A stretch of 64,000 nt of DNA from Bacteroidota bacterium (GTDB lineage: Bacteria > Bacteroidota > Bacteroidia > B-17B0 > Aurantibacillaceae), in the NCBI GenBank assembly GCA_030684395.1, contig JAUXTT010000014.1:1-64000 (forward strand), written 5' to 3'. The translations under genes were made by a program, and so were the position numbers. The notes beneath the pieces were generated by a model. That model saw only the letters and a list, made by a program, of their open reading frames with translations. It had not been told where the DNA came from and ran no database searches. The number at the start of each line of letters is the position of its first letter. Position 1 is the stretch's first letter. Shown here piece by piece: positions 4,669 to 63,994 of this stretch.

Positions 4669-4880
4669 CGCTATTCGTTTTTATGATGATGTTTAAAACT
4701 AGACAAAGGTTTGTAAATGAACACTAATAAATGTTACACAATCATTTAAATAAATTGTATTATTCACATTGTTCGAATCTCAACGGGCGCGAAGGATGAT
4801 TAAATTCTTCTCGACGGAATTGAAAAGGCGCCGGAAATCTGTTATCTTTATAAAGAGCTAAGCGACAAACGACAGGGACA

Positions 4881-5447
4881 ATGCGACAAAAAAAAGTAAT
4901 ACAAGTATTCATTCTTCTAATTGTGACTACAGGGCTTCGGGCACAGGTTACAGAGATCGACAGGCTTATTAAAGGAGAGCTTAATATGACCTTTCCCGGT
5001 ATTTATTTTAAAAATAATTCGGTTGACTATGCTGTAATGCCTTATACTGTTGACTCGTGTTTTAAGTATATAGCGATCCATATAAGGGACATCAATAGTC
5101 TTGTTATTTGGCGTGATAGCAGTGAAACAGAGCAGTTGACAACTAAACGTATAAAAAAATTAAAGACCGACCTTAATAAATATACCCCGTCGGGAAAAAT
5201 TAATATCCTGTCAATGGGAAAAGCACAAAAAATTTCTCAGCGAACAATTGCTAAAGGTGCCGACTCTGTGCAAATTCACTATTTATTATCTTTAAATAGT
5301 GTGTTCGACGTTAGTGGTGTTATTATTCCAACCAACAAAAAAGGCTGGCTAAAGAAACCTCATACGGAGCGCCCACGCTTATGGTGCCTGAATTGCTGGA
5401 AACGAGGACGTTTTACAAAAGAGTATCGGCGCTTACATGTAAAGTAG
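4881..5447 (+). CDS. small secreted hypothetical protein, probably frameshifted
   Basis: 188 aa as read, with a signal peptide (KVIQVFILLIVTTGLRAQ). No recognised domain; the mature part has a YTVDSCFKYIAIHIRDI segment. The last 30 residues in this frame (KPHTERPRLWCLNCWKRGRF) look non-natural. Shifting the frame at the A6 run at 5337-5342 (one missing A) gives a continuation ending in YGAPTLMVPELLETRTFYKR and ALTCKVAAKHSCL, with a stop at 5486-5488. That looks far more protein-like. The gene is therefore probably 4881-5488 with a one-base deletion (mutation or sequencing error). TATCTTTA about 45 nt upstream of the start resembles a -7 box. Confidence 0.6.
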   Translation: MRQKKVIQVFILLIVTTGLRAQVTEIDRLIKGELNMTFPGIYFKNNSVDYAVMPYTVDSCFKYIAIHIRDINSLVIWRDSSETEQLTTKRIKKLKTDLNKYTPSGKINILSMGKAQKISQRTIAKGADSVQIHYLLSLNSVFDVSGVIIPTNKKGWLKKPHTERPRLWCLNCWKRGRFTKEYRRLHVK

Positions 5448-30941: not shown

Positions 30942-30952
30942 AGTTATTATAT

Positions 30953-31096
30953 TTAGCCGTAAATGTACAAAAAAATATAGATATGGCTAAATATGATTAT
31001 TATAGTTAGCCGTAAGTATTAAATAAAACACAGATATGGCTAAGTATAATTTTATAATTAGCCGTAAGTATTAAAATTAATATAGTTATGGCTAAT
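30953..31096 (-). repeat. three tandem 52-53 bp dyad repeats upstream of the AAA ATPase gene
   Basis: TTAGCC begins at 30953, 31006 and 31058 (periods 53 and 52). Each unit is TTAGCCGTAA, about 20 nt of A/T, then TATGGCTAA, so every unit is itself an inverted repeat TTAGCC...GGCTAA. The period equals five helical turns, so all copies face one side of the DNA. The array starts 12 nt from the AAA ATPase start. It looks like a multi-site operator or iteron-type binding array. Confidence 0.75.
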
Positions 31097-31285
31097 TATA
31101 AATTACTATTACAACTAATTTAGGTCGCTGTTAAACAAATTATAAAAGGCGAGTAAAATAAATCATGTATCAAAGCACACCTCCCAACCGCGCAAAACAA
31201 GCTCACAAACAAAAACTTCCAAATAGAAATCTTCATTTATTGAGATATTTTAACAGCTAAACTATTATATCTAAGATATTGGCTG

Positions 31286-31306: not shown

Positions 31307-32827
31307 GTGAACAAAAAACTCTACATATTCATTTTTCTTGTAAGCTTATCCTTTACATTTTTTTGCCAATCTACTGTTTCAGAACAGGGAAAACAAATTG
31401 AATTCTCTGCAAATCGTGTTAAATATGTTCAAAGCAAACACGCTCAAATGCTTATTGGTAATGTAATGTTTAAACATGAGGGAGTGGTTATTACCTGCGA
31501 CAGTGCTTACCGTTTTGAGAACAACACCTTGGAAGCTTATGACCACATCTTAATAAGAAAAGGAGATTCGCTTACCATTACCGGAGATAAGCTCAACTAT
31601 GATGGAAACAAAAAGTTAGCCACCATTGAGGGTAATGTTACCTGTATTGAAAAAGACATGATCCTTACAACACCTACTATGACCTATGATGTAAAAAATT
31701 CGGTAGCCAGTTATTTTGGCGGTGGAACTATTGTAAACAAGGATAATACATTAACAAGCAGAAGTGGCTACTACTACTCTACTTCTAAAATGCTTGCCTT
31801 TAAACACAATGTAAAGCTAAAAAATTCTGATATCAACATGTTTGGTGATACACTGCTCTATAATACCGTAAGTAAAACAGCTTTTTTTGTGGGGCCAACC
31901 AATATTATCAGCAAAGAGAATAAATTATATTGCGAATATGGTTGGTATAATACTGAAACTGAGAAAAGCCATTTGAATACACGTGCAGTAATTCAGTCTA
32001 AAACCAATGAACTTAGGGCAGATAGTATCTTTTATGATCGTAAAGCTGGTTACGGGAAGGCGTACAGTTGTGTGCAGATTATTGATACCACCAATAAAAT
32101 GATTATTCACGGGCAGTTGGCAGAGCATTATGAAAATAAAAATATTTCACTGGTTACCGGCAACCCGCTTTTGATCAGGCAGTTTGAAACAGACTCTTTA
32201 TTAATTACAGCCGATACACTTTATACTGAAAGAACTATCAGTAAAATAAAAGATCAAAAAGATTCTATCTATGTGCGTGCATATCATCATATTAAGATCT
32301 TCAAAAAAGACTTGCAAGGCGTGGCAGATTCAATGACCTATACTACTTACGACTCAATCATGATATTGTACAATAACCCCATCATGTGGAGCGATTCAAC
32401 TCAATTAAACGCCCGTGAGATAAGGGTTCACACAGCCAACAACAGTGTAAGTTCGTTTGAGTTATTAGGAAATGCTTTTGTTATTGCTCAGGAAGACAGC
32501 CTGAAATTTAACCAGATAAAAGGAAAAGAGATCATTGGAAGTTTTTATAATGATACTTTAAACCGCATTCACGTTAACGGAAATGCTCAGGTTGCTTATT
32601 ATATGAAGAATGAACAAAAAAAATTCATAGCGTTTAACCGAACAGATTGTGCTTCGATTCAGGTGTTTTTTGCAGCAGGAGAAATGGAAAAGATCACCTT
32701 TGTAAACAAACCAGTGGCAAGACTTATTCCTATAAAAGACGTAAAGCCGGAAGAAGAACGATTTAAAGGCTTTAACTGGAATCCACTGCGCAAACCAAAG
32801 GATAAACAGTCGTTCCTTAATTTCTAA
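31307..32827 (+). CDS. OstA-like (LptA/LptD N-terminal type) lipopolysaccharide transport protein
   Basis: 506 aa. Signal peptide (LYIFIFLVSLSFTFFCQ). The body is a repetitive beta-jellyroll of the OstA/LptA type: GNVMFKHEGVVITCDSAYRFENNTLEAYDHILIRKGDSLTITGDKLNYDG and several further 'D(S)xxY' repeats (LRADSIFYDRKAGYG, LITADTLYTER, GVADSMTYTTYDSIMIL). In the phylum such proteins are taken to bridge the periplasm for LPS export to LptD. The start is GTG at 31307; no later Met would keep the signal peptide. Followed 72 nt later by another secreted protein gene on the same strand. Confidence 0.85.
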   Translation: MNKKLYIFIFLVSLSFTFFCQSTVSEQGKQIEFSANRVKYVQSKHAQMLIGNVMFKHEGVVITCDSAYRFENNTLEAYDHILIRKGDSLTITGDKLNYDGNKKLATIEGNVTCIEKDMILTTPTMTYDVKNSVASYFGGGTIVNKDNTLTSRSGYYYSTSKMLAFKHNVKLKNSDINMFGDTLLYNTVSKTAFFVGPTNIISKENKLYCEYGWYNTETEKSHLNTRAVIQSKTNELRADSIFYDRKAGYGKAYSCVQIIDTTNKMIIHGQLAEHYENKNISLVTGNPLLIRQFETDSLLITADTLYTERTISKIKDQKDSIYVRAYHHIKIFKKDLQGVADSMTYTTYDSIMILYNNPIMWSDSTQLNAREIRVHTANNSVSSFELLGNAFVIAQEDSLKFNQIKGKEIIGSFYNDTLNRIHVNGNAQVAYYMKNEQKKFIAFNRTDCASIQVFFAAGEMEKITFVNKPVARLIPIKDVKPEEERFKGFNWNPLRKPKDKQSFLNF

Positions 32828-41785: not shown

Positions 41786-43078
41786 CTAATGAAAATCGCA
41801 CTCTTTGCAGGGATACATGTCTTTTATATAGAATATACCGTCAAAAACACTTAGCCACTCTCCTTTTATTTCGTGATGCAATAATGCCTTCATTTTGAAA
41901 CTACTTTTTCTTTCAATAGAAGTATCCTTAATATCTTTAAAATTGATAAATGCAAAATCATGTTTTTTTTGGAAAACATAATGCTCAAAGCTATTGACAG
42001 AAGGTTTATCTACTTTGTGTTTTCCTTTTGATCCAATTTGTCCGAAAGTTCCCTGGTAAGAGTCAAAGCCTAAAACATATACTTGATCTTTTAGTTCTTT
42101 ATACACTTCAGCTCCCATCGTTACAATTTCATTACTTTTCTTAGCCTCGGTATGGCTTATATTTTTTGAGATATGAAAGTTATGTGCCCAAACAATTATT
42201 TTTTTACCTGCATATTTTTTTTGTGAGAGCCAAATAAGATTATCACTCATTTGAGAGTCGCGAATATTTGTGGAATAATCATTTCCCTGGTCTTCCGGCA
42301 GCCATGAATTTAAAACATATCCTTTTAAGTTCTTTACTTCCTGATTCCAAAAATCATCCTCAGTAGTTGCAGGCTTCAGTTGAGCAGTTAGTGTATCTAA
42401 AACCCGCAGAAATTCCTGTTGCTTAATTGGGCTAACCTTGCTATTGTACTCTTTACTTATTACACTATTCAGGGTCAGCATAAAGTCGGGATAAGAAACC
42501 GTTTGAACAACAGGTAAATTAAACTCTTTCATTACACTATCAAATTGCCTTATATAATTTTCCTTTGCATAAGCACCCGCGTGCCTGCTGTCGAACCCTG
42601 TAATAATTAATGGATCGGTAGTTTTAAAGCAATTATCTAAATAACAAAATAGCTCCCGGTTCTGCTCACACTTCGTCCAGAGTGAATAAACATTTCTATT
42701 GTTACATACGGTTTTTATATCTATTTCTCTTTTTTGTGCTTTTTCCCAGCTCATGTTCAAACTATAAAAATCACTTTCAAATGCGAGTACATCAAACCCG
42801 CATTTCTCATGCAAATATTTTATTAGCCTCGTTTTTGCCTGGAAAGTAGCTGCATCGCCATGATCTTGTTCACCCAGCATTACTATTTTCGCATCGCCTA
42901 TGGCATCTTTTATTGACTCCAGATCTGAAAAAACAGTATCATTCGGATCAATTGAATTTATAGCACCAAGTTTAGTATCGATTATATTTTGAATAAGCGT
43001 ACTCTCTCCCTGACCTTGAGTAAAATAAAAGGAGAAAATAAATAGAAGAGATAATCGAATATGTTTTTTTACACGCAT
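41786..43078 (-). CDS. erythromycin esterase family protein (secreted)
   Basis: 430 aa with a signal peptide (IRLSLLFIFSFYFTQGQ). EreA/EreB-type active-site pieces: VMLGEQDHGDA (E70, H73), VLAFESDFYSLNM (E101), and IIVWAHNFHISKN in the C-terminal half. In EreB the equivalent Glu/His set activates water to open the macrolide ring. Most family members in environmental genomes have other, unknown esterase substrates, and the export signal here argues against cytoplasmic macrolide resistance. Resistance should not be assumed from sequence. Lies in the accessory stretch ahead of the cassette-like gene. Confidence 0.8.
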   Translation of the reverse strand: MRVKKHIRLSLLFIFSFYFTQGQGESTLIQNIIDTKLGAINSIDPNDTVFSDLESIKDAIGDAKIVMLGEQDHGDAATFQAKTRLIKYLHEKCGFDVLAFESDFYSLNMSWEKAQKREIDIKTVCNNRNVYSLWTKCEQNRELFCYLDNCFKTTDPLIITGFDSRHAGAYAKENYIRQFDSVMKEFNLPVVQTVSYPDFMLTLNSVISKEYNSKVSPIKQQEFLRVLDTLTAQLKPATTEDDFWNQEVKNLKGYVLNSWLPEDQGNDYSTNIRDSQMSDNLIWLSQKKYAGKKIIVWAHNFHISKNISHTEAKKSNEIVTMGAEVYKELKDQVYVLGFDSYQGTFGQIGSKGKHKVDKPSVNSFEHYVFQKKHDFAFINFKDIKDTSIERKSSFKMKALLHHEIKGEWLSVFDGIFYIKDMYPCKECDFH

Positions 43079-43231: not shown

Positions 43232-43954
43232 TTATTTTTCACCTTTTAATTTGTCCTTGTTGTAAAATTGTGTTTTTTTCAAGTTACCTGTATCATCATA
43301 TTCTTTCCATCGTCCATCTTTTAATCCGTCTTTCCATTGTTGTTCAGATTTTGTTTTCCCATTTTCATAGTATTCTTTTCTTGTCACCACACCTTTATCA
43401 TTTTCATAGTCTGTAAAATCAAATTCTCCTTTTAAATTTCCAGTTGGATAATAATATTTCCAAAAACCGGTTGGAGGACAGTGATCAATATTATCACTTG
43501 TTGTTCGGGGTAAGTCACTCTCTAATTGTCCGGATGGATAATATCCTTTTACTTTATAAAAGACCATTGGGTAAAATTCCAATGCAAAACTATCAATGAC
43601 CGATTGCGATTTCGTAGAATCCTTGCAAGTCATTGCCAACATTCTGTCATTGTCTGTGAAAGGGAAATTATAAATTAATTGCAATGTATCATTAATGATT
43701 TGATAAAGAACAAGTCGCCTTGCAGAATCTGTTGTTGTCCAGCGACCATTGACAGTTTTAGAAACGACGGGCTTTTCTGATTTTAATTCATAGTTTGTCA
43801 TTGCAAAAGTAGAATCAGCCTTAAGAAATAATTCTAAGCCACTACCCCAGGAAAATTTGTGAATGGTACTGTATTCACCTATAATATTTCGTTGCCCGTA
43901 TGTTAACTGCATCAATAATAAGATAACAGTTAAGAAAGTAGTTCTGTGTTTCAT
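43232..43954 (-). CDS. secreted YwqK/MORN-repeat protein
   Basis: 240 aa. Signal peptide (TTFLTVILLLMQLTYGQ), an N-terminal lipocalin-like domain (GEYSTIHKFSWGSGLELFLKADSTFAM...NGRWTTTD) and four to five C-terminal MORN-type repeats (GYYPSGQLES, GFWKYYYPTGNLKGEF, KEYYENGKTKSEQQWKDGLKDGRWKEYDDTGNLKKTQFY). The YwqK label comes from a supposed antitoxin, but in Bacteroidota these repeats mostly occur in surface or envelope proteins. Attc-like element 3, with its promoter, lies directly upstream and co-oriented, so this is a lone cassette-like gene. Confidence 0.8.
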   Translation of the reverse strand: MKHRTTFLTVILLLMQLTYGQRNIIGEYSTIHKFSWGSGLELFLKADSTFAMTNYELKSEKPVVSKTVNGRWTTTDSARRLVLYQIINDTLQLIYNFPFTDNDRMLAMTCKDSTKSQSVIDSFALEFYPMVFYKVKGYYPSGQLESDLPRTTSDNIDHCPPTGFWKYYYPTGNLKGEFDFTDYENDKGVVTRKEYYENGKTKSEQQWKDGLKDGRWKEYDDTGNLKKTQFYNKDKLKGEK

Positions 43955-43973: not shown

Positions 43974-44159
43974 CACTAATGGTTTGCACACTGGCGCTTG
44001 CGGAAAATGAAACAATCAATTTCTATACGCAACCAAAGTAAAACGAAGATAATAATTTATTAGCGGAGGCAAAACAAAAAAACGTTGTGCAAACACAGCG
44101 CCTTAATTTAGCCAAAGCCCTTGTTTGTCCACCCGCATTACGCTATGTGTGCTGTTATG
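43974..44159 (-). repeat. attC-like inverted-repeat element 3 with internal promoter
   Basis: Read on the minus strand. It shares with element 2 a perfect 21-nt block (44100-44120 here), a GTTTTGCC(T/G)CCGCT segment and TTATCTTCGTTT. Its arms differ from those of element 2 but still pair: GCACAC (44147-44152, minus) with GTGTGC (43986-43991, minus), plus GCG/CGC beyond a bulge. Boundary boxes are degenerate (ATAAC on the left, CCATTAGTG on the right). It lies between the methyltransferase gene and the YwqK-like gene. Confidence 0.6.
44044..44073 (-). promoter_or_regulatory. Bacteroidota-type promoter inside attC-like element 3
   Basis: Minus strand: TTTG (44070-44073), 18-nt spacer, TATCTTCG (44044-44051). 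Same boxes as in element 2, pointing into the YwqK-like gene about 90 nt downstream. Confidence 0.55.
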
Positions 44160-44178: not shown

Positions 44179-45126
44179 TTATTTTCTTTTCGAAACTAAC
44201 TCTTCACTCGAAAGTTGATATGCTAATTGTCTGGTTTTAGCTAATTTTTCAACAACATGATTGTGAAGGGCAAAATGGTCAGTATTAAAATTACATACTA
44301 AAGCCTCTACAACAGTCCTTCTGTTTTCGATATTGCCACCATTATGATAAAAATGATCTTTAGTTACAATATTAAACTTATTCCAAAATTTATTTACCAT
44401 CTCATTCTCTCTCCAATCATTATGATGCCAGGTGGAAAGAATGAATTTAGCTTTTGTTTTGCTTAATAAATTAAATAGGAGTTCTTCATCCGCTTCTGTC
44501 CACCCATTATAGTAGTCTACATGGCGCCCATAATAAGGAGGATCACAGTATATAATATCATTTGCTGTAGCAAGAGGAATGATGTCTGCAAATGATTTAT
44601 TATGAAAAGTCCAATTTGGTTCGGGTTGAATAATTTTTGAAACGGCAGAAACTTGATTTGTAATTTTGGTTACATAAGCCTGTGCGAATCTTTCCGGTTT
44701 TTTGCAAAATGGAATATTCCAATGACCCTTTTTATTAAATCGCATCATTCCATTAAATCCTGCGCGAGATAAAAAGATAAAGTCGTAAGGTGAAAATTCA
44801 CCATCATTAAAACGAGAACGGACTTTTAAATAGTGTTCGTAACCATCATTGTCAGCTTTACTTAAAATATCACCTTCATGTTCAAGGTATTGTTTCATCA
44901 GAGGAGCTGTGATTTTGTTCTCTTGAATACCTTTATAGAAATTTATAATGTGTGGATTGGCATCATTCAAAATGGCATTTTTATAGCCAGAATTAAAAGC
45001 GACCACGCCAGTGCCAAGAAACGGTTCTATCCATTTTCCTTTAACTTTCGGAGCAAGTTCATTTATCCATGGAACTAATTTGGTCTTTATGCCTTGACTT
45101 TTTATAGGAGGAACAATTATTTTCAT
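44179..45126 (-). CDS. DNA adenine-N6 methyltransferase, D12 (alpha) class, EcoRV-type
   Basis: 315 aa. SAM-binding motif I WIEPFLGTGVVAFNS (33-40 core), catalytic DPPY in DIIYCDPPYYGRH (195-198); the order motif I then DPPY defines the alpha class that includes Dam and M.EcoRV. Substrate segments FIFLSRAGFNGMMRFNKKGHWNIPF are typical. It methylates adenine in the recognition site of the paired endonuclease, expected to be GATATC. The start overlaps the endonuclease stop by 4 nt (ATGA), so the R gene comes first and translation is coupled. Confidence 0.9.
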   Translation of the reverse strand: MKIIVPPIKSQGIKTKLVPWINELAPKVKGKWIEPFLGTGVVAFNSGYKNAILNDANPHIINFYKGIQENKITAPLMKQYLEHEGDILSKADNDGYEHYLKVRSRFNDGEFSPYDFIFLSRAGFNGMMRFNKKGHWNIPFCKKPERFAQAYVTKITNQVSAVSKIIQPEPNWTFHNKSFADIIPLATANDIIYCDPPYYGRHVDYYNGWTEADEELLFNLLSKTKAKFILSTWHHNDWRENEMVNKFWNKFNIVTKDHFYHNGGNIENRRTVVEALVCNFNTDHFALHNHVVEKLAKTRQLAYQLSSEELVSKRK

Positions 45127-46127
45127 TTTCTTTTCCCTCCTTTCTTTGCTGCAGTTTTTTTGACAATAGCCTTCTTAACAGTTTTTTTAGCTGTTGTTTT
45201 TTTGTCAATTTCTTTACTGTTTTTTACTTTCGCGACAATTTTTTCTATAAGGTCTTTTCTTCCTTTAAATTCTAAGTAGTCTTTTAGTGTAGTTATTTTT
45301 ACAGGTTTACCATCTTTCATCATTGTTGCTGAACCGTGATTAATCCAATATTCATCAAACCATTCTTCGCCTAATTGACTAAAAATTCCGCTTCCATTTC
45401 GCAAATCTGCAATATCAACAATCGAACCTATGTTTGCGGTGTTTCCTGAGCCTTGTTTATCACTTGCTATTTTCCATTTTTCAGAAGCGAAAAAATCAAA
45501 ATCTTTGATAACGGAAGTAATAGATTTTAGGTTGTCAACTGTTGTAACATCACGTTGGCCAACCTTTTTATTTGGGGTTTCGTATTTTTCTTCAAGTTCC
45601 TTAACTTGAAAAATTTCTGTTTCGGAAAGATCATCAGTTACATCAGTTCGGGTATAAATAACCCCTAAGCAATAATGTCCAGTGTATTGATTGTAGGGGA
45701 ACTGTATGTTTTTATCTTTATCTCTTTCTTTAAAATAACCACCGTGGCTGCCTAAAGTGAATCCAGCCGTTTTATCATTGCGCCTAAATGTTGTTTTGAT
45801 GTCAAGTGCGAATTTCACTTCGTCATTTTGTTTATGAACGAAAGTTAAGTCGGGATACCAGTTTTGCTTTTCAGCAAGTATGATTTTATAACCAATACTT
45901 TCGGCAAATTGTAAAATTTGAGGGAAAATGTGAATTTCCAAAATTTTTGATACGATTTTTGTATCTGATGAAATGGTGTAAATATTCTTATAAACATCTA
46001 TAAAACCTTTAATTGTCCAGTCACCATCATCGGAAGAAACATATTTTTCAAGTTTGTCCGAAAAGGCATCAAGCTCCTTTTTAAAGTCAGATTTATACTT
46101 GTTTTTCTCTGCTAAAGTCATGTTCAA
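45123..46127 (-). CDS. type II restriction endonuclease, EcoRV family
   Basis: 334 aa. Clear resemblance to EcoRV: SDTKIVSKILEIHIFPQI, then NWYPDLTF (D93) and FALDIKTTF (D109, K111), the PD...D-x-K catalytic triad, FTLGSHGGYF, FPYNQYTGHYCLGVIYTR, and the DNA-binding loop SGSGNTANIGSI (226-235 core; EcoRV has GSGNTTNIGS). It should cut GATATC to blunt ends using Mg2+. Compared with EcoRV (about 245 aa) it has about 40 extra N-terminal residues and a Lys/Ala-rich tail (KKTTAKKTVKKAIVKK, GKRK) like histone H1. First gene of the R-M pair, preceding its methyltransferase. Confidence 0.9.
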   Translation of the reverse strand: MNMTLAEKNKYKSDFKKELDAFSDKLEKYVSSDDGDWTIKGFIDVYKNIYTISSDTKIVSKILEIHIFPQILQFAESIGYKIILAEKQNWYPDLTFVHKQNDEVKFALDIKTTFRRNDKTAGFTLGSHGGYFKERDKDKNIQFPYNQYTGHYCLGVIYTRTDVTDDLSETEIFQVKELEEKYETPNKKVGQRDVTTVDNLKSITSVIKDFDFFASEKWKIASDKQGSGNTANIGSIVDIADLRNGSGIFSQLGEEWFDEYWINHGSATMMKDGKPVKITTLKDYLEFKGRKDLIEKIVAKVKNSKEIDKKTTAKKTVKKAIVKKTAAKKGGKRK

Positions 46128-54049: not shown

Positions 54050-55126
54050 TTAAACAATCCTCACAGCAACAATAGTTACATCATCTACCTGCTCGAGGTT
54101 TCCAACCCATTCGGTAAAGGTTCTATCCAACAGGTCTTTCTGATCTTTTAATGAAAGATGTATGTTTGCAATAAGTAATTCCCTAAGGTTCTTACTCATG
54201 AATTTTTTTCCTTTTTCTCCACCGAACTGATCAGGGAAACCATCTGTTAAAGCATAGACCATATCACCGCTTTGGAGATCAACATCATGTTGTGTAAATG
54301 GAGTATCTTGTCGGTCGTGCTTACCCACCGGCATTTTATCCGATTTGTAATCCAGCACTTCAGTTCCTCGAATGATCCAAACAGGGTTATTTGCAGCGGA
54401 GAATGAAAGTTTTTTATTTTTCATGTCATACACCAAACAACAACAATCCATGCCATCTTTTCCTCCATCCTTACTTCCATCATTAGCTAAAGTCTCAATA
54501 ATAACCTTACGGGTATAATTTAAAATATCAGCAGGTCGCGAACAATCTTCTTTCACTGCTTCCTTTAAACTATTCATATTAAGCATACTCATAATAGCTC
54601 CGGGAACACCATGTCCGGTACTATCTGCAGTAACCATTACAAAATTCCCATCAGCCACATCACTTGCCCAATAAAAATCACCGGAAACCACATCCTTGGG
54701 TTTAAAAAAGATAAAGTAATTATCTTCTCCAATCAAACGTTCATCCAATAGTTGTTTACTCGCAAGCATAGAACATTGAATACGTTCAGCGTAATTTATA
54801 CTATCAGTTATCTCTTTATGTTTTTCTTCGATTTCATTTTTCAGTTTTTCGATAACTTCAACTTGTTTCTTAGTGAATTTATTCCAGAAAAATTGCCCCT
54901 CAAGAACTGTATATATAAGTTGCAGCATTACAACAATATTGAAATTGCGGAAAATAACCACAAAAAAATTTGAAAACCCAGAATATGTAGATGGTTTAAA
55001 TGGGCTTATGGTAAAGTATATTGCTAACCCAATATTTAGCAGAAAATAAAAAAGAAAAAGAAAAAGAAATTTTTTCTTGTTTATTCTAAAACCATAATAT
55101 TTTATTTTTATTTCGTCTGATGTCAT
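54050..55126 (-). CDS. membrane-bound SpoIIE/PP2C protein phosphatase (no TPRs)
   Basis: 358 aa. Two or three N-terminal membrane segments (about 18-38, 50-75), a coiled coil that includes KHKEITDSINYAERIQ, then a PP2C/SpoIIE domain (about 148-358): VSGDFYWA, ADSTGHGVPGAIMSMLN, DGMDCCCLVYD, YALTDGFPDQFGG and QVDDVTIVAVR. All metal-binding Asp/Gly positions are present. Its catalytic half is nearly the same as that of the next gene, so it is a recent duplicate whose TPR sensor was replaced by membrane helices. Last gene in the array. Expected role: dephosphorylating a Ser/Thr-phosphorylated partner such as an anti-sigma antagonist. Confidence 0.85.
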   Translation of the reverse strand: MTSDEIKIKYYGFRINKKKFLFLFLFYFLLNIGLAIYFTISPFKPSTYSGFSNFFVVIFRNFNIVVMLQLIYTVLEGQFFWNKFTKKQVEVIEKLKNEIEEKHKEITDSINYAERIQCSMLASKQLLDERLIGEDNYFIFFKPKDVVSGDFYWASDVADGNFVMVTADSTGHGVPGAIMSMLNMNSLKEAVKEDCSRPADILNYTRKVIIETLANDGSKDGGKDGMDCCCLVYDMKNKKLSFSAANNPVWIIRGTEVLDYKSDKMPVGKHDRQDTPFTQHDVDLQSGDMVYALTDGFPDQFGGEKGKKFMSKNLRELLIANIHLSLKDQKDLLDRTFTEWVGNLEQVDDVTIVAVRIV

Positions 55127-55228
55127 TTTATTGAATGATGAATCTTAAAAGTTAGTCAGAAAACACATTTATTGTAATTTTTTCCGGCTTACATACAATA
55201 ATAGCAGTAAACCAATCCATTCCGAATC

Positions 55229-57316
55229 TTATGAAATCCTAACCCCCATAATGGTAACATCATCAACCTGCTCCAAATTTCCAACCCAACCAGTGAAAAT
55301 TTTATCCAATAAATCTTTTTGTTCTTTCAACGACAAATGTGCGTTTGCTATTAATAATTCACGAAGGTTTTTACTCATGAATTTTTTTCCTTTCTCACCA
55401 CCAAATTGATCAGGGTATCCATCGGTGAGTGCGTACACCATATCACCGGTTTGTAAATCTACATCATGCTGCGTAAATGGGGTATCCTGTCTATCGTGTT
55501 TACCCACCGGCATTTTATCCGATTTATATTCCAATACTTCTGTTCCTCTGATAATCCATACCGGATTATGTGCAGCCGCGAATGAAAGTTTTTTGTTTTT
55601 CATATCATACACCAAACAGCAGCAATCCATTCCATCCTTTCCTCCTTCTTTACTGCCGTCATTTGCCAATGTATCAATAATAACCTTACGGGTATAATTC
55701 AAAATATCAGCAGGTTGCGAAAGGTCCATTTTTACCGCTTCCTTTAAACTATTCATGTTAAGCATACTCATAATGGAGCCCGGAACACCATGCCCGGTGC
55801 TATCCGCTGTAACCATTGCAAAGTTTCCGTTTGCCAATTTACTTGCCCAATAAAAATCTCCGGAAACAACATCCTTGGGTTTAAATAAAATAAAATAAGA
55901 ATCTTCACCCATCAGTTGTTCGTCCAATAGTTTTTTACTTGCCAGCATGGACCGCTGAATTCTTTCGGCGTAATTGATACTATCAGTGATCTCTTTATGC
56001 TTTTCTTCAATAATATCGCGCTGGTGTTCTATTTCCTTATTGATAGCGGCAAGTTTTTGATTTGCTTTTTGTTTCAGTTTATTCCTGTTATAAAGAATAT
56101 AAGAAATTGTGATCATTACCAGTAACAATCCAATACCGGAGAATATGATCACTTTTTTGGTAAAAGCCTGTACCTTCCTTTCTGACTCCACTTCCGCTTC
56201 TCTTTTTTGTGCAGCAAGCGACGCCTCCAGTTCCGCCAGTTTTTTCGAAGCATCTTCACTTAGCAATTCCTCACTGATAGTATGATTTACTTTTAAATAA
56301 TAGTATGCACTATCATATAATTTAATAAAATTAAAAGAATTAGATAATCCAAGAGACGCGTTTTTTTGCTCTTCTTTAATTCCCTTGTCGGCAGCCACCA
56401 AATAAGCCTTTCTATAGTATTCGATAGCTTTATCAATGTTCTTATTATTCAGATTGAGCATTCCCAGATAATTACAATCCTGTGTAATGCCCTGAAAGTT
56501 TTCGAGTTCTTCCTGGATTTTAAGCGAAGCCAAAAATTTTTCTTCCGCCGACTTCAAATCACCATAGAAAAAATCAATCCTGCCCAGGAGGTATAAACAA
56601 TCGGACAGAATATAATTATCCTGAGTTTTTATCCCTATTTTATTGGCTACTTCAACGTGCTTTTTTGCTTCAGAATAATTATTTTGATCTACGTATACAA
56701 AACCTAAAAATACCGAAGCGCCACCAATTCTAACTTCGTCGCCTGATTGCAATGCCTGATTAAAGTATTTTATAGCCTCGTTATAATTTTTTTGGTAATA
56801 ATGAATAGAGCCAATATCAATATCAACCTGGGCCATACCGCTTGTATTCTTGATGCTTTCAAAATACTTCATTGCTTCTGCCAGGGATTTTAAGGCATTT
56901 GAATATTCTCCTTCTAAAATTTGGATTTGTCCCTTACAATTAAAGACAAAACCAAGCCCTTTATTGTTTTTTGTTGTTAGAAAAATTTTCTCCGCTTCAT
57001 CCAGCTTTTTAAGTCCATATTCATAATCATCCTGATAATATCCTACATTCCCAAGATCAAATAATGCAAGTCCTTCTCCATCCTTATAGTTGATCTTTTT
57101 AGCCAATGTCAAAGCCTTATTTGCATATTCAGCCGCTTTGCCCGGGTCTTCATTTATCATAACGAAGGAAAGTTCATGCAGTATATCGCAACGAATTTTA
57201 TCGGAAGAAGCTTTTTGTAAGCTTTGTTCCAATGAATCGATTGTGGTTTGCCCACAAAGTGAATTAAATAAAAAGAGAATAAAAATTAAAATAGGAAAAC
57301 GAAAAACTCTATCCAT
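55229..57316 (-). CDS. TPR-containing SpoIIE/PP2C protein phosphatase
   Basis: 695 aa. Signal peptide (FPILIFILFLFNSLCGQ), about seven TPR repeats (about 40-340, e.g. AKKINYKDGEGLALFDLGNVGYYQDDYEYGLKKL, ALQSGDEVRIGGASVFLGFVYV), one transmembrane helix (about 390-412, VIIFSGIGLLLVMITISYILY), a coiled coil ending in KEITDSINYAERIQ, then a PP2C domain (about 486-695) with GDFYWA, DSTGHGVPG, DGMDCCC, TDGYPDQ, QVDD. Periplasmic TPRs would bind a peptide or protein ligand and relay it through the coiled coil to the cytoplasmic phosphatase. Confidence 0.9.
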   Translation of the reverse strand: MDRVFRFPILIFILFLFNSLCGQTTIDSLEQSLQKASSDKIRCDILHELSFVMINEDPGKAAEYANKALTLAKKINYKDGEGLALFDLGNVGYYQDDYEYGLKKLDEAEKIFLTTKNNKGLGFVFNCKGQIQILEGEYSNALKSLAEAMKYFESIKNTSGMAQVDIDIGSIHYYQKNYNEAIKYFNQALQSGDEVRIGGASVFLGFVYVDQNNYSEAKKHVEVANKIGIKTQDNYILSDCLYLLGRIDFFYGDLKSAEEKFLASLKIQEELENFQGITQDCNYLGMLNLNNKNIDKAIEYYRKAYLVAADKGIKEEQKNASLGLSNSFNFIKLYDSAYYYLKVNHTISEELLSEDASKKLAELEASLAAQKREAEVESERKVQAFTKKVIIFSGIGLLLVMITISYILYNRNKLKQKANQKLAAINKEIEHQRDIIEEKHKEITDSINYAERIQRSMLASKKLLDEQLMGEDSYFILFKPKDVVSGDFYWASKLANGNFAMVTADSTGHGVPGSIMSMLNMNSLKEAVKMDLSQPADILNYTRKVIIDTLANDGSKEGGKDGMDCCCLVYDMKNKKLSFAAAHNPVWIIRGTEVLEYKSDKMPVGKHDRQDTPFTQHDVDLQTGDMVYALTDGYPDQFGGEKGKKFMSKNLRELLIANAHLSLKEQKDLLDKIFTGWVGNLEQVDDVTIMGVRIS

Positions 57317-57373
57317 AAAATTATATGACTGATTAATTCAACCCAAATTTAGCAGAATTATTGGAAAAAAGTA

Positions 57374-59512
57374 CTACAAACGGATTCCAACCAGCAGAAC
57401 ATCATCTACCTGCTCCAAATCCCCCTTCCATTCCAAAAATTTGCTGTTCAGCAATTCTTCCTGTTCCGCCATTTTTACATTGGCTATCATGCGAACCATT
57501 TCATTTAATGGCTTATACTTGAATTTCTTCCCTTTTGGGCCTCCAAATTGATCAGCAAAACCATCGGAATAGAGATAAAGCATATCTCCCCGTTTATATT
57601 GGATCGAATGTAAATCAAAATCACCTACCCTCTCACCTTTTCCCACAGGCATTTTATTGGCAGGCATTTCTTGTATTACATCTCCGGAAACTAAAACAGG
57701 TGCATTATTGGCAGCCGCATAGGTTATTTCCCTTGTGATTGTATTTATACAAAGTAAAATCCCATCAAAACCATCCTTTTGCTCGCCTTTACTTACGGTG
57801 CTGATCAACTTCTCTCTGGTGTAATTAAAGATTTTATCCGGTTGATGGATGTTCTCTTCGTTTATTGCTTCATTCAAAAACGAAATATTCAACAAACTCA
57901 TAAAGGCTCCGGGAACACCATGCCCGGTACTGTCACAAACTGCGAGATAAAAAAATTCGTTCTTTTCGGTTGCCCAGTAAAAATCGCCACTTACAATATC
58001 TTTTGGCCGGAAAAAAATAAAATTCTCCGGTAAATATTCATTTACAAATACTGTACTTGCAAAAACGGTGTCTTGAATTCTCTTCGCATAGTTGATACTA
58101 TCCAGTATCTCTTTTTGTTTTTCTTCTATAATATGATTTTTAACCTGAAGCTCACCATAACTTTCTTTTAACTGATCCTGTTGTTTTCTGATAAGTATGT
58201 TAGCTGCACGTACTTTTCTAAGGGCAATAAAAATAACAAGTAGCAACAAACAAACAACTACTAAGAAAATTATCAGAAAGTTTTTTATTTTCTTTTCCTT
58301 CTTTAATTGTTCGTTTCTGGCTTGAGCCAACTCTGCACTTAATTTGGCTGTCTTCTCGATCTCACTTGTTTTGTATTTAATCGACATTTCAGAGAGTTGA
58401 GACGTTATATCATCATTTGATAATTTCTGCGAAATGCGTTTAAACTCATCAAAATAAACAATAACACTATCATAATTACCTCTATAGGCATGGTAATAAG
58501 TTAGCTCTTCCATAACAAAGAGGCGAACTTCATTATCAATATCCGGTTCCATATATATTTTTGTAGTATCTATATAAGCCTTATGCATGCCCATGTTTTT
58601 TTGATACCTATAGTTAAGTGCTATATTGATGTATGATGAAGCGAGTCCATCCGAATCACTCAATTGCTTTTTTAATTCAATCGACTCCTTTAAATAAACT
58701 ATAGCTTTGGGATAATTTTGTGTATTAGTATAAATATTACCCATATTATTATAAATGCCAGCCTGATTTACAATATCGTTATTTTCTTTAAGTATCTTCA
58801 GGGCTTTTAAATAACCCTCCAGGGCCTTTGGATAATCATTTTTCTCAGAATGAAGTAATGCAAGATTCATAAGAGGGATGGCAGTTTTACTTTGCATTCC
58901 CGACTTTTCATAAATACTCAATGCCGAATCAATGTATGTTTTCGCGGTTTCTAATGAATGCTGTTTTATATAAATAATGGATAAATTATTATACACAGCG
59001 CCTTTTAAACTCCTATCAGGACAAAGATTATAGTAGGTAAGTGATTTTTCATAAAACGAAATGCTTTGTTTGGTATTACCGCTTGCCTGATAACACAAGC
59101 CAATATTGTTATAGCAATTTCCCTGTCCTTTGTAATTTTTAATAGTACTAAAGAGATTAAAAGCTTCCTTAAATAATTTAATTGCTGCATCTCCTTCTTT
59201 TCGGTTATAATTAACGATGCCTTTTTGAACCAATGCATTCGCCTTCCATTTTACCGAATTAATTTTATCTGCAAAATCATAAAGCTGTTGTGAATAAGCC
59301 GCTGCCGAGTCAAGGTCGTTATATAAATAATAAGATATGACACCAAATAGAGCCTGACATTTTAAGGAATCGGGTTTTGAAGGATCTTTAATAACTCTAT
59401 TCAAGCTGTCAACCTGTGTGTATCCGCTTATAGAGATCGCTATAAAACAACAAAAAAACAAAATATGCCTGAACTTTGTAAGCATACTAAAATGGTTAGG
59501 TTCCAATTGCAA
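57374..59512 (-). CDS. TPR-containing SpoIIE/PP2C protein phosphatase
   Basis: 712 aa from the ATG at 59512; the second Met (residue 10, MLTKFRHILFFCCFIAISI) may be the true start, as the signal peptide begins there. About seven TPRs (about 45-340, KGQGNCYNNIGLCYQASGNTKQSISFYEKSL, NYPKALEGYLKALKIL), a transmembrane helix (about 405-425), KEILDSINYAKRIQ linker, and a PP2C domain (about 508-712): GDFYWA, DSTGHGVPGAF, DGFDG, SDGFADQFGG, QVDDVLLVGIRL. The phosphatase is closest to the next gene upstream. Confidence 0.9.
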   Translation of the reverse strand: MQLEPNHFSMLTKFRHILFFCCFIAISISGYTQVDSLNRVIKDPSKPDSLKCQALFGVISYYLYNDLDSAAAYSQQLYDFADKINSVKWKANALVQKGIVNYNRKEGDAAIKLFKEAFNLFSTIKNYKGQGNCYNNIGLCYQASGNTKQSISFYEKSLTYYNLCPDRSLKGAVYNNLSIIYIKQHSLETAKTYIDSALSIYEKSGMQSKTAIPLMNLALLHSEKNDYPKALEGYLKALKILKENNDIVNQAGIYNNMGNIYTNTQNYPKAIVYLKESIELKKQLSDSDGLASSYINIALNYRYQKNMGMHKAYIDTTKIYMEPDIDNEVRLFVMEELTYYHAYRGNYDSVIVYFDEFKRISQKLSNDDITSQLSEMSIKYKTSEIEKTAKLSAELAQARNEQLKKEKKIKNFLIIFLVVVCLLLLVIFIALRKVRAANILIRKQQDQLKESYGELQVKNHIIEEKQKEILDSINYAKRIQDTVFASTVFVNEYLPENFIFFRPKDIVSGDFYWATEKNEFFYLAVCDSTGHGVPGAFMSLLNISFLNEAINEENIHQPDKIFNYTREKLISTVSKGEQKDGFDGILLCINTITREITYAAANNAPVLVSGDVIQEMPANKMPVGKGERVGDFDLHSIQYKRGDMLYLYSDGFADQFGGPKGKKFKYKPLNEMVRMIANVKMAEQEELLNSKFLEWKGDLEQVDDVLLVGIRL

Positions 59513-59570
59513 CTAAGGCTGGCTCAAATATACCAATAAATACTGAGATTTTGTTATGCTGAACCTATTG

Positions 59571-61619
59571 TTACACCTTCAAGCCTATTACCAGCATATC
59601 ATCAACTTGCTCCAATGGCCCTTTCCATTGATTGAATGTATTAAGCAGTATTTCCGATTGTTCATTCAGGGGTTTTAAAGAAACAGAAAGTAACAATTCA
59701 TTCAAAGGTTTATACTTGAATTTCTTCCCTTTTGGCCCGCCAAACTGATCTGCATAACCATCGGTATACAAATACAGCACATCTCCTTCTTTACATTGCA
59801 GGGTGTGTAACTTAAAATCTTCTTTTCGTTCGCCCTGCCCTACCGGCATTCTATCGCCAGAAAGCTCCACAATTGAACCGTTACTAATTAAAACAGGGGA
59901 GTTATTTGCAGCAACGTATTTAATTTCTTTTGTCGCTTTATTAATGCAAAGCAGTATTCCATCAAACCCGTCTTTCTGATTTTCCTTGCTGATAGTAGAA
60001 ATCAATCTTTCTCTTACATACTCAAAAACCTTATTAGGCTCTGAAATATTTTTTTCTTTGATGGCTTCACTTAAAAAACCAATATTCAACAAACTCATAA
60101 AGGAGCCGGGAACTCCATGACCAGTACTATCGCAAACGGCAAGGTATATTAAACCTTCCTGTTCTAAGGAGTTTGAATCTTCAGCCAACCAGTAAAAATC
60201 ACCACTTACAATATCCTTAGGTTTAAGAAGGACAAAGGAGTCGGGCAATAATTTTTTAAAGAATTCGGAATGAGGGAATATGGCCTTTTGAATTCTTTTG
60301 GCATACTTTATACTGTCTGTGATGTCTTTATTGATCTCTGTAAGTTCGTTGTACGCCTTATCGATTATACGTTTTTGGGCCTCAATGGCTTCATTTTTAA
60401 ATTCCAGTTCCTTTGCTATTTTATTCTTTTCTTTAAAGCGTTTAAACAGAAGAAACGAAATAAACAAAAATGATACACCGCTTATAATAAGGATCCAGAT
60501 ATAAAGGTTCTTTTTTTTATGTGCGCTTTCATTTTCACTCTCCCTGAGTTTTTGAACAAGCTTCATTTCAATCAGTTCTTTTTCCTTTTCCTTATTGTTA
60601 TATTTTGCTTCCAGCTCGGCAAGCTTAGAAATGTTATCCTCATTTCGAAGGCTATCCTTTAAGAACATTAATTTGGTTTGAATTTTAAAAGCCGCCTTGT
60701 AATCTCCCTTCAATTCATAAGCATCTTTAAGATTAATATATGCATATTTAAGATCTTCGCGGGCTCTATTTTTAATAGCGAGTTCTATAACCTGATTGGA
60801 AATTTCGATTGCTCTTGCAGGATTTTTTTGTTTGATATAAATTAATCCCAGGTTTTCCATACTAGCCATCATTCCCATGGTATCAGCGCTTGATTTTCTT
60901 ATTTGAAACCCCTGATCATTGCATTTGATCGCATTTATAAAATCTTTCTTCTGCGCATAAATTACCGACATGTTATCGAGGCATGAAGCGATCTGCCGAA
61001 TGTTCTTTTCCTCTTCAAATATTTTCATCGCCTTTTGATAATAAACCAAAGAACTATCTAACTCCCCCTTTTCATCAAAAATAATAGCAAGGTTTCCATA
61101 ACTGGATGCTATCCCATTTTTATCTTTCAAAAGAAAACTGATAGCGATGTTTTTATTGAAGTACTCAATTGCTTTATCATGCAAACCCTGATACCAGTAT
61201 ACAATTCCCATTCCCGTATAGGATTTACTGAGACCGGGGTTGTATTTATTTCTTGAATAAAGATCAGCGGCAGTAAACAAATGATTTAAGGATGCGATAT
61301 AATTTGTTTTGTATTCTTCGCAGAAAGCGAATTGCATGTAAACATCAGCAATTAAAATTTCATCTTTCAATTGCCGGGCCATTTTTAATGCCAGCTCATT
61401 ACATTTTACGGCTGAATCAACATTTGACTGGTGTAATTCATTGCTATATTCAACAAGAGCAATTACTTTCTTTTTAGGATTTTTTTCATCCAGGTATCTT
61501 TTATATAAAGAAACTGAGTTCTGGGAAAGAGTAGTAGTACAAAAAAAAACAAAGAGCAAAATACTAAATACGTGCCTGGCAGCTATTCCCGTATTTATAT
61601 TCTTAATCCTATTATACAT
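59571..61619 (-). CDS. TPR-containing SpoIIE/PP2C protein phosphatase
   Basis: 682 aa. Signal-like N-terminus (HVFSILLFVFFCTTTLSQ), TPRs (about 60-335, GIVYWYQGLHDKAIEYFNKNIAI, AIIFDEKGELDSSLVYYQKAMKIF), transmembrane helix (about 375-395, LYIWILIISGVSFLFISFLLF), KDITDSIKYAKRIQ linker, and a PP2C domain (about 472-682) with GDFYWL, DSTGHGVPGSF, DGFDG, TDGYADQFGG, QVDDMLVIGLKV. Its start overlaps the end of the upstream array gene by 25 nt, so translation is coupled. Confidence 0.9.
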   Translation of the reverse strand: MYNRIKNINTGIAARHVFSILLFVFFCTTTLSQNSVSLYKRYLDEKNPKKKVIALVEYSNELHQSNVDSAVKCNELALKMARQLKDEILIADVYMQFAFCEEYKTNYIASLNHLFTAADLYSRNKYNPGLSKSYTGMGIVYWYQGLHDKAIEYFNKNIAISFLLKDKNGIASSYGNLAIIFDEKGELDSSLVYYQKAMKIFEEEKNIRQIASCLDNMSVIYAQKKDFINAIKCNDQGFQIRKSSADTMGMMASMENLGLIYIKQKNPARAIEISNQVIELAIKNRAREDLKYAYINLKDAYELKGDYKAAFKIQTKLMFLKDSLRNEDNISKLAELEAKYNNKEKEKELIEMKLVQKLRESENESAHKKKNLYIWILIISGVSFLFISFLLFKRFKEKNKIAKELEFKNEAIEAQKRIIDKAYNELTEINKDITDSIKYAKRIQKAIFPHSEFFKKLLPDSFVLLKPKDIVSGDFYWLAEDSNSLEQEGLIYLAVCDSTGHGVPGSFMSLLNIGFLSEAIKEKNISEPNKVFEYVRERLISTISKENQKDGFDGILLCINKATKEIKYVAANNSPVLISNGSIVELSGDRMPVGQGERKEDFKLHTLQCKEGDVLYLYTDGYADQFGGPKGKKFKYKPLNELLLSVSLKPLNEQSEILLNTFNQWKGPLEQVDDMLVIGLKV

Positions 61620-63994
61620 ACATCATCAACTTGTTCCAGTAAGTTTTTCCATTCCTCAAACTTTCTGCTAACCTTTTTTTCTTGTTCCTCTAAAGGTAAT
61701 AAGTTAATAGAAAGAAACAAATCGCTTAACTGTTTGTATTTGAATTTTTTTCCTTTTGGCCCTCCAAACTGATCTGCATATCCATCAGTGAAAAGATAAA
61801 TAACGTCGCCCGATCTGAGATCAATAGTGCTGCTTGTAAAAGAAAGATCTTGCTTTGGTGATCTGCCAACAGGCATTTTATCAGCAGAGAACTCAAGCAG
61901 TTCACTATTTCTTACTATCCACAATGGATTATTGGCCCCGGTATACTCCAAGCTCATATTTTTCAGATCAATTGAAATAAGTGTACAATCCATACCATCA
62001 TTACCACCCTGACCGCTTTCGTCAGGTTTCAAACCTAGTATAAGGATCTTCCGCACAAAATTCAATATCTCTTTGGTTGAAGTAAGTCCCCTGCTCAGGA
62101 GTGACTCATTTAACAATGAAATATTAAGCAAACTCATAAATGCACCCGGAATCCCATGTCCTGTACTATCAGCAACACATAAATAGAATTTACCATCCAC
62201 ATAATTTGCCCAGTAAAAATCCCCACTCACCAAATCTTTTGGCTTGAAGAAAATAAAATGATCATTTAATCTTTCTTTAAACTCAGACCCGGAAGCCAGA
62301 AATGAACTCTGTATGCGTTTTGCATAATTAATAGAATCCGTTATTTCCTTTTGGTGTTCCTCCACGATCCTTTTTTGGTTTTCCACCTCTAGTTTTTGTT
62401 TTTCAATGATCTTATTTTGCTTTTGGCTCACTTTAAATCTGTTGAAAATAAAAACACCAAATACAACCAAAATAATTATCCCTCCGTAAAGCGCATAGTT
62501 TTTGGTTTTTTCCTGGCTTATCTGCAATTGATGTATCCGTATCTGCTCATCCTTTAGTTCCTGCTCATGCAAGTTTTTAAGGCTATCTTCTGAAGCTTTT
62601 TTCTCGTACTCAAATTTTATTTCATTTCGGGTTAAGGCTTTCGACTTTTCGATATTGAATATTGAGTCTTTGTAGATCATATAAGTTCTAAAGTGCTTTA
62701 AAGCCAATAGTGGTTGCCCCTTTTTTTCATAAAGTTGGGATAACAGTTCCTCTGCTAACTCAATGTTTTCAAGTGATTCGATCTGATAAGCAATTTTCAA
62801 AGATCTCTCACAGTTTGAGATTGCTTCATTTACCTTACCAAGGTTAGCTAAACAGTTAGCCATATTATAATACTGAACGGATTGTATTTCGAGCTGCTCA
62901 TTCTTTACATAAATAGTTAATGCTTTTTGATGATAATAAATTGCTGAGTCCAGTTGCTTATTACTTTCAAAGAGTAAACCATAAGAAGCGTAAACATCTG
63001 CAATCCCAATTTCATCTTTTATCTCAACAAAAATCGTCAACGCATTTGCGAACTCCTCTTTTGCATGAGAAAAATCATTCATTCTAAAATAAATGTCGCC
63101 AATATTTGCGAGAGAGATTGCTATTCCCTGCTTGCTATTCATCTCTTTTTCAACTTTAAGAGATTTAACAGAATAATCAAGTGCTTTCTGATATTCTCCT
63201 TGCTTCTTAAATACTAACCCAATATTTGACAAAGCATTTGCAACACCCAATTTATACTTTGCTTCTTCCTGAATCTTTAATGATTCAAAATAATGTTTAA
63301 GTGCCAACGGATAATCACCATGAGAGAAGTGTATATTTCCAATGGCATTTAAGCAGGAAGCCATTCCCTTTTTATTATTTATTTTTTTCTCTTCGTTGAA
63401 AGACCTGTTTTGATATTCAATAGCCTCAATGAATTTCCCCAGCCTTTTGTAAGCAATTCCCATGTTGCCGTAACATGCGGCAAGTGATTTGGGGTTGTTT
63501 TCTTTCAAATAGTAAGAAACTGCCAATTGATTTTTATCAAGCGATTTTTGATATTCACCCAAATAAAGATAAACCGCAGCAATTCGTCCATTTGACAACG
63601 CTTCCTGTTTTTTATTATTTAAGGAAATAAATAGTTTGTTGGCCTTTTCAAAATAAGCCAATGCTTTGTCGTAAGAATCTTCATCTAAAAAATAATTTCC
63701 CAATTCAATGCAAATATCCCCGGTTTCGGAATTAAGCTCATTTTGCTCTGCCAGTTGCTCCAGGTTCAATAACTCCTTCAGAATTGAATCGCCCTTACCT
63801 TCATTAATTAGTTCCTGATATAACCCAAGTTTTATTGGAATCTGTTTTTTAAAACTTGGCTCTTTTTGTAATTCAGCTTTGAGTGAATCTGTTTTAGAGT
63901 TTTTTTGCGAAAAAAGATGCCCTTTACTTAGAAAAAGTAAGCACAGAAAAAACAACATTCTGAAACTAAAATATTTTCTCCTTCTCTTTTTCAC
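61595..63994 (-). CDS. TPR-containing SpoIIE/PP2C protein phosphatase
   Basis: 799 aa, the largest of the array. Basic N-terminus (KKRRRKYFSFR) then a hydrophobic signal (MLFFLCLLFLSKGHLFSQ); the start could be the Met at residue 13. Many TPRs (about 60-460, KALAYFEKANKLFISLNNKKQEALSNGRIAAVYLYLGEYQKSL), transmembrane helix (about 497-517, YALYGGIIILVVFGVFIFN), KEITDSINYAKRIQ linker, PP2C domain (590-799): SGDFYWA, DSTGHGIPGAF, NDGMDCTL, TDGYADQFGG, QVDDVCIIGLRI. It lies at the window edge; only 6 nt upstream are visible, so its promoter and any earlier array members are unknown. Confidence 0.9.
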   Translation of the reverse strand: MKKRRRKYFSFRMLFFLCLLFLSKGHLFSQKNSKTDSLKAELQKEPSFKKQIPIKLGLYQELINEGKGDSILKELLNLEQLAEQNELNSETGDICIELGNYFLDEDSYDKALAYFEKANKLFISLNNKKQEALSNGRIAAVYLYLGEYQKSLDKNQLAVSYYLKENNPKSLAACYGNMGIAYKRLGKFIEAIEYQNRSFNEEKKINNKKGMASCLNAIGNIHFSHGDYPLALKHYFESLKIQEEAKYKLGVANALSNIGLVFKKQGEYQKALDYSVKSLKVEKEMNSKQGIAISLANIGDIYFRMNDFSHAKEEFANALTIFVEIKDEIGIADVYASYGLLFESNKQLDSAIYYHQKALTIYVKNEQLEIQSVQYYNMANCLANLGKVNEAISNCERSLKIAYQIESLENIELAEELLSQLYEKKGQPLLALKHFRTYMIYKDSIFNIEKSKALTRNEIKFEYEKKASEDSLKNLHEQELKDEQIRIHQLQISQEKTKNYALYGGIIILVVFGVFIFNRFKVSQKQNKIIEKQKLEVENQKRIVEEHQKEITDSINYAKRIQSSFLASGSEFKERLNDHFIFFKPKDLVSGDFYWANYVDGKFYLCVADSTGHGIPGAFMSLLNISLLNESLLSRGLTSTKEILNFVRKILILGLKPDESGQGGNDGMDCTLISIDLKNMSLEYTGANNPLWIVRNSELLEFSADKMPVGRSPKQDLSFTSSTIDLRSGDVIYLFTDGYADQFGGPKGKKFKYKQLSDLFLSINLLPLEEQEKKVSRKFEEWKNLLEQVDDVCIIGLRI

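Follow-up and report, generated by a model that had tools for sequence, protein, structure and literature searches.

Hairpin cassette arrays beside a tyrosine recombinase without the IntI additional domain: a probable integron type in Bacteroidota

Hairpin elements, a gene cassette and neighbouring genes in the window

The window analysed here is a 64,000-nt stretch of a contig from a Bacteroidota bacterium of the family Aurantibacillaceae, and it contains three copies of an imperfect-hairpin element, which are called attC below in anticipation of the reading argued for in this work. Element 1 is a short attC of 75 nt (67-141, + strand) that runs from TAAC to GTTA and precedes the cassette of the window; the contig starts 66 nt upstream of it. 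The covariance model, among whose training sequences it was not included, matched it at 59-149 with 45.6 bits (E 2e-9), its arms scored 12/13 in an arm scanner with none in shuffles, and TATATTTG in its loop (101-108) matches the Bacteroidota -7 consensus. It belongs to the same family as elements 2 and 3, and is probably the copy that the initial annotation had numbered first. At its strict setting the scanner gave zero shuffle matches, but its sensitivity was poor.

Element 2 is a long attC of 183 nt (2028-2210, + strand), its true bounds being TAAC and GTTA. Its arms ACGGGC (2033-2038) and GCCCGT (2196-2201) both pair, its spacer is GAAAC, and its crossover point is predicted at the G of GTTA, position 2207. 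Element 3 is a solo long attC of 181 nt (43977-44157, - strand), with arms GCACAC and GTGTGC that pair and a degenerate R' box, ATTA instead of GTTA. Read in the same sense for comparison, the two elements have unrelated flanks, differing arms and, as the initial annotation had noticed, a common loop sequence, whose coordinates were confirmed. The identical block that it had given as 21 nt is real, and measures 22 nt (2064-2085, + strand; 44100-44121, - strand). In addition, GTTTTGCCGCCGCT at 2109-2122 (+) has the counterpart GTTTTGCCTCCGCT at 44062-44075 (-), and TTATCTTCGTTT occurs at both 2133-2144 (+) and 44041-44052 (-). BLAST of element 2 against its own genome returned element 3 with an E value of 3.5e-8 and a copy on contig C22 with 1.2e-7 (77% over 80 nt), and a more divergent further copy was found on contig C40. 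The similarity between elements 2 and 3 is not a chance one; the scores of 183 and 168 bits that they respectively received from the covariance model of 15 copies are high by construction, since both were training sequences.

The block itself is non-diagnostic and marks one subclass of long attC loops that bear a promoter motif. Across the phylum, the exact loop pattern had matches in the own genome only, because the loop is subclass-specific; this result nearly suggested a repeat private to that genome. Two further sets of matches were attributed to chance: an exact 17-mer at 8 loci in viral contigs, none of which carried an element by the covariance model, and loop-pattern matches in Oscillospiraceae and Selenomonas (L054, L056), which had no TAAC/GTTA ends.

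A complete gene cassette (138-2210, + strand) stands between element 1 and element 2, starting with GTTAGGCACAATGTA, ending in GTTAGGCATAGTGTA (reverse complement) and carrying element 2 as its own attC. Its start and end agree at 12 of 13 scored positions, the next best end within 20 kb reaching 10. The cassette gene (148-2001, + strand) encodes a secreted protein with a PKD domain and a type IX secretion sorting tail (PF18911, PF18962); its open frame extends over 106-2001, and the cassette has its first ATG at 148, 10 nt past the base at which it starts. Behind element 2 lies a gene for an NADPH-dependent FMN reductase (2251-2805, + strand; PF03358), after which neither an attC nor a cassette end above chance was found.

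Directly downstream of element 3 is a MORN-repeat protein gene (43232-43954, - strand; PF07661), which by its position is the likely target of the promoter motif in the element 3 loop. Directly upstream are genes for an EcoRV-type restriction endonuclease, which is complete (PF09233, E 4e-103), and a D12 adenine methylase (44179-46127, - strand; PF02086). These restriction-modification genes are possibly former cassette cargo, and no matching cassette start was identified near them. A search for a partner cassette of element 3 gave one good match: located 6 kb upstream, GTTTTGTTTACTGCG at 50201 (-) agrees at 12 of 13 scored positions with the start expected for element 3, with GTTT replacing GTTA; it may be a chance match or the trace of an old multi-gene cassette. 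Element 3 may be a relic, or a cassette end that was inserted outside an array. The window also encodes an erythromycin-esterase-like protein two genes downstream of element 3 (41786-43078, - strand; PF05139, E 4e-28) and five large paralogous ORFs on the - strand (54056-63994), with blocks repeating about every 1.2-2.2 kb. It further contains a 225-nt direct repeat, 80% identical, in two copies 1.2 kb apart (3618-3842 and 4831-5055), and three tandem 52-nt copies, 81-83% identical (30947-31103), ahead of an ORF at 31307-32827.

Conserved fold, same-strand arrays and complementary cassette ends

The arms of elements 2 and 3 were originally proposed to have changed in a compensatory manner while preserving the fold, as at sites recognised in the form of single-strand hairpins, and covariation bore out the compensatory change. 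In 15 copies, which were gathered by the loop pattern alone with the arms unused, and whose stem was written by hand from these same sequences, 86.5% of the cells paired, six stem pairs were altered on both sides and the covariation score was 0.307, compared with 0.137 when shuffled (0/500). Sliding the partner strand lowered the score to 0.02-0.14 and the pairing to 22-42%, and a single pair, 17/194, was seen as A-T, G-C, C-G and T-A. Among 192 distinct elements, an ungapped 13-bp stem counted from the TAAC/GTTA ends covaried at nearly every position, with a fixed A.C mismatch at position 14 (9% paired), after which pairing resumed; this larger set was picked with covariance models containing part of the stem, so the result from the 15 copies is the cleaner one. 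Whole-strand fold energies did not distinguish the elements from shuffles. The elements share with attC sites arms that are variable yet complementary and, as unpaired bases that mark the strand, fixed A.C mismatches and an asymmetric spacer; the hairpin is probably recognised in single-stranded form. Since attC sites need a conserved structure, the conservation of the fold fits an integron.

Same-strand arrays of 11, 26 and 79 copies were found, with a uniform orientation within each. In a genome of the same genus as the window, 11 copies lie on one strand within 12 kb (G001:C23), and the covariance model yielded 26 matches in genome G032 and 79 in genome G451. Neighbouring copies are spaced by about one gene (in the second set, a median of 807 bp). 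Each cassette begins with GTTANNNNN, the reverse complement of the NNNNNTAAC at its end, a complementarity that follows if both are joined on circularisation. On average, 4.35 of the 5 variable positions after GTTA matched the reverse complement of the end in 63 cassettes, 45 of which were perfect, whereas shuffling the ends among cassettes gave a mean of 2.07 +/- 0.14 and a largest value of 2.59 in 10,000. A second set of 89 cassettes gave 4.62, compared with 1.95 shuffled. The pairings between cassette ends were absent from the search models. These shuffles leave descent uncorrected; the rule, however, sets the start of every cassette against its own end in many genomes, and would be difficult to attribute to descent alone. 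Across 153 cassettes, complementarity held at positions 1-9, was broken at positions 10-11 and came back at positions 12-15, and position 11 at the cassette start was an A in 152 of the 153. Furthermore, two cassette pairs were identical over 80 nt downstream of CG|TTA and only about half alike upstream, which is as expected of natural products of a crossover at the predicted point.

The end rule bears on the possibility that the element of about 180 nt is itself a mobile or repeated hairpin, REP/MITE-like or of the IS200/IS605 end type, dispersed between genes. The short folded intergenic copies with sharp TAAC and GTTA ends agree with such an origin. Movement as a unit, however, predicts that the two ends of one element match, and start and end matched at only 1.73 of 5 positions within an element, against 4.35 across a cassette; moreover, the orientation is uniform in the arrays, and no single-strand (Y1) transposase was present among the neighbours examined. 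We consider this explanation very unlikely.

A tyrosine recombinase without the IntI insertion beside an attI-like site

On contig C22 of the own genome, a gene for a 373-residue tyrosine recombinase is followed about 90 bp past its stop by the attI-like sequence AATAAGTTAGGCGTAAT. Next comes the first cassette, which ends with ACAACGCCTAAC, and behind it a copy that closely resembles element 3. The first cassette also obeys the end rule, GTTAGGCGT being the exact reverse complement of ACGCCTAAC. Contig C34 of the same genome carries a second, truncated platform. The C22-type arrangement was seen again in at least 15 other genomes, which belong to many Bacteroidota families, and in most platforms the attI-like TATAARYNAGTT is situated about 65-175 bp past the integrase stop. 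Among 15 platforms that could be read automatically, the ends of the first cassette matched in 14 (13 at 5/5, one at 4/5), and in the remaining one (L164) the pattern apparently took the wrong GTT; in L118 and L123, attI and first attC matched by eye. All 94 attC beside an integrase were on the strand of the integrase. A strict pattern search for a cassette promoter (Pc) at the platform picked up TAnnTTTG shortly past the end of the integrase gene in a minority of cases. Many contigs stop 0.2-4 kb past the integrase, as is expected where near-identical attC break the assembly.

Three other loci were recorded separately. L115 (G003:C9:1-9000) has a lower-scoring integrase (363 aa, 373 bits) and, unlike the other platforms, an attC array on the opposite strand. 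The integrase of L122 (G451:C7) looks IS91-associated and was set aside. A Pontibacter plasmid (L129, NZ_CP111080.1:22113-31237) encodes a more distant integrase, 38% identical, with a cassette that starts with GTTGGCACATAT and ends with ACATGTGCCAAC and a much shorter attC.

The integrases contain a tyrosine recombinase catalytic domain (PF00589, E 1e-40) with the HxxRH and tyrosine motifs, conserved as HWLRHS, LGH and YTHV, and they lack the 41-residue insertion around patch III that forms the IntI-specific additional domain. The spacing between boxes I and II is 91-92 residues in nearly all members, compared with 133 in 13 of 13 IntI and 94-98 in Xer proteins, and about 42 residues are missing from the new integrases in an alignment with 2a3v. 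The IntI model TIGR02249 matched them in two pieces, with model positions ~181-238 missing, at 194-210 bits, below the cut-off of 265, whereas IntI1 (class 1, plasmid R751), used as a control, matched in one piece at 507 bits. The top NCBIfam model was NF040815 (205-233 bits, cut-off 220). In a tree, IntI formed one clade with full support, and the placement of the new group was blurred by long branches. The N-terminal region of about 90 residues had at best a weak match to DUF5710 (E 0.0019) and no firm family. Relatives of the integrase in viral contigs were distant (30-61% identity), and most were without the N-terminus.

Many of the genomes analysed are draft assemblies. Within the family, elements were found in 57 of 61 genomes and the integrase in 42 of 61; genome G001 is among the array genomes without such an integrase, possibly owing to assembly gaps. 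In a sample of the phylum, 71 of 395 genomes matched the integrase at E<=1e-95, some of them single-contig genomes that have arrays, although the lower-scoring matches among these 71 may be other recombinases. The plasmid of a Chryseobacterium isolate from trout (L127, NZ_CP041688.1:7035-26048) carries the integrase and five attC matches on one strand, the fifth being cut by the end of the retrieved stretch, with an IS110-family transposase and a group II intron also lying in its array region. Both the IS110 and the group II intron families include members that target attC in classical integrons.

Alternatively, the cassettes could be moved by an ordinary IntI encoded elsewhere, the recombinase beside the arrays being an Xer-type bystander. 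The adjacent recombinase does lack the IntI insertion, and canonical IntI over the cut-off is common in other classes, being present in 105 of the 395 phylum-sample genomes. In the window's own class, however, only 1 of about 97 genomes has a canonical IntI, and the insertion-less integrase is present in its place, yet arrays are near universal in the family; some genomes of the phylum sample carry both enzymes. Neither the own genome nor five other array genomes contained an IntI over the cut-off, and in many genomes the insertion-less recombinase is directly followed by an attI-like site and by a first cassette whose ends match. A bystander role is accordingly improbable, though less so than the mobile-hairpin origin.

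Motifs in the attC loops, the proposed integron and its relation to known systems

The loop sequence common to elements 2 and 3 is largely a promoter-like insert. In element 2 (2110-2141, + strand), TTTTG at 2110-2114 is separated by 19 bp from TATCTTCG at 2134-2141, and in element 3 (44044-44074, - strand), TTTTG at 44074-44070 is separated by 18 bp from TATCTTCG at 44051-44044. The pattern TTTG-N17-21-TAnnTT(T/C) was found in 31 of 37 long attC in the forward direction and in 0 of 37 in reverse, compared with 1.2 in shuffles, a count whose independence is overstated by the relatedness of the copies through descent; the motif was also found in 4 of 14 short and 1 of 34 middle-length attC. It follows the consensus of the Bacteroides primary sigma factor (PMC7366714), and the loops are predicted to act as promoters. 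The element 2 loop additionally contains a putative terminator, the hairpin TGCGC-GAAA-GCGCA with the tail TATTTTTAG (2087-2109, + strand). Terminator-like hairpins ahead of the promoter motif were present in 13 of 37 long attC, compared with 2 in reverse and 2.5 in shuffles, which is a weaker result than that for the promoter.

Because the elements lie ahead of genes and contain promoter- and terminator-like motifs, the conserved fold might instead function at the RNA level, as a leader, attenuator or riboswitch-like element for the downstream gene with the promoter inside it. The 5' arm, however, lies upstream of the promoter, which would leave the long stem outside a transcript starting there; the end rule links bases separated by roughly one gene, a pattern that regulation in RNA leaves unexplained; and an Rfam 15 search of the window gave no match at the gathering score. 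An RNA element is therefore as improbable, in our estimate, as the mobile hairpin.

We conclude, with a probability of about 0.88, that elements 1-3 are attC sites and that they, together with an adjacent tyrosine recombinase lacking the additional domain and its attI-like site, represent an integron. The arrays, the end rule, the covariation, the platform with the attI-like site and the natural junctions were demonstrated at the sequence level, and from them we infer the recombination reaction and its catalysis by the adjacent recombinase. In the proposed mechanism, each cassette would comprise a gene and its own attC, and the free cassette would expose this attC as a single-strand hairpin, with a variable L box of 13 bp and an asymmetric spacer (A versus AAA[AC]C). 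A second stem would form from the two cassette ends, with an R box of 9 bp, the fixed mismatch and 4 further bp. The recombinase encoded beside the attI-like site would then swap strands at about CG|TTA, which would add cassettes behind its gene or remove them and, unlike in known IntI, would proceed without the IntI-specific additional domain. As the long attC loop carries a promoter motif and sometimes a terminator-like hairpin, an inserted cassette probably provides its downstream neighbour with a promoter. We lean towards a broader hypothesis: Bacteroidota would possess a separate, widespread class of integrons, whose integrase would recombine folded single-strand attC without the additional domain, perhaps by means of its N-terminal region, and whose long loops would work as transcription adapters, terminating the transcript from upstream and initiating the next one downstream. 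Its enzyme could be a second solution to the integron integrase or an ancestral state of it.

IntI is reported to require the additional domain for its activity (PMC8138268; PMC9668308, with reference to Messier and Roy 2001), so an insertion-less enzyme might be inactive on attC. IntegronFinder and a study of archaeal integrons accept IntI only with this domain (PMC9668308), and an early survey likewise required it (PMC2426708); integrons whose integrase lacks the defining domain would be missed by such standard surveys. With IntegronFinder 2, a single complete integron was reported in Bacteroidetes proper, in Salinibacter (PMC9024848). No description of attC arrays beside insertion-less integrases was found in the freely available journal papers searched, and the novelty of these platforms is provisional. 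If the platforms work, gene capture by integrons would be common in a class thought to be nearly devoid of it, a plasmid of a cultured Chryseobacterium being one case, and a supposedly essential domain would be dispensable, which bears on the origin of integron integrases from Xer-type recombinases. Long arrays, whose cassettes are mostly regarded as silent, would also have to be seen differently if attC loops hold promoters.

The proposed system shares with integrons, including sedentary chromosomal ones, an integrase gene, an adjacent attI-like site and a same-strand array of mostly one-gene cassettes, as well as imperfect-hairpin attC with RYYYAAC/GTTRRRY-type boxes that are complementary across the cassette and a structure more conserved than its sequence. 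It differs from them in that the integrase has no additional domain and an extra N-terminal region, that its gene points with the array whereas canonical intI is usually divergent, that pairing in the R box extends over 15 positions and includes a fixed mismatch, that the spacer is 1 versus 5 nt, and that the long attC loops bear a promoter motif. Integrons of spirochaetes (Treponema) likewise have the integrase oriented as the cassettes, spirochaete IntI being generally reversed (PMC9668308), but theirs is a canonical IntI with the additional domain. In domain make-up, the closest proteins are XerC/XerD and archaeal XerA, which have no insertion, in keeping with NF040815 as the top NCBIfam model; Xer proteins, however, act at single double-strand dif sites without hairpin arrays, whereas the integrases described here have an N-terminal extension and are encoded beside attI and cassettes. 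Finally, the gene-less promoter cassettes of the Vibrio superintegron (PMC11014356) also provide sense-strand promoters within the array that activate the downstream cassette, but in that system the promoter itself forms the cargo of a cassette that has no gene, whereas here the putative promoter lies in the attC loop of gene-carrying cassettes.
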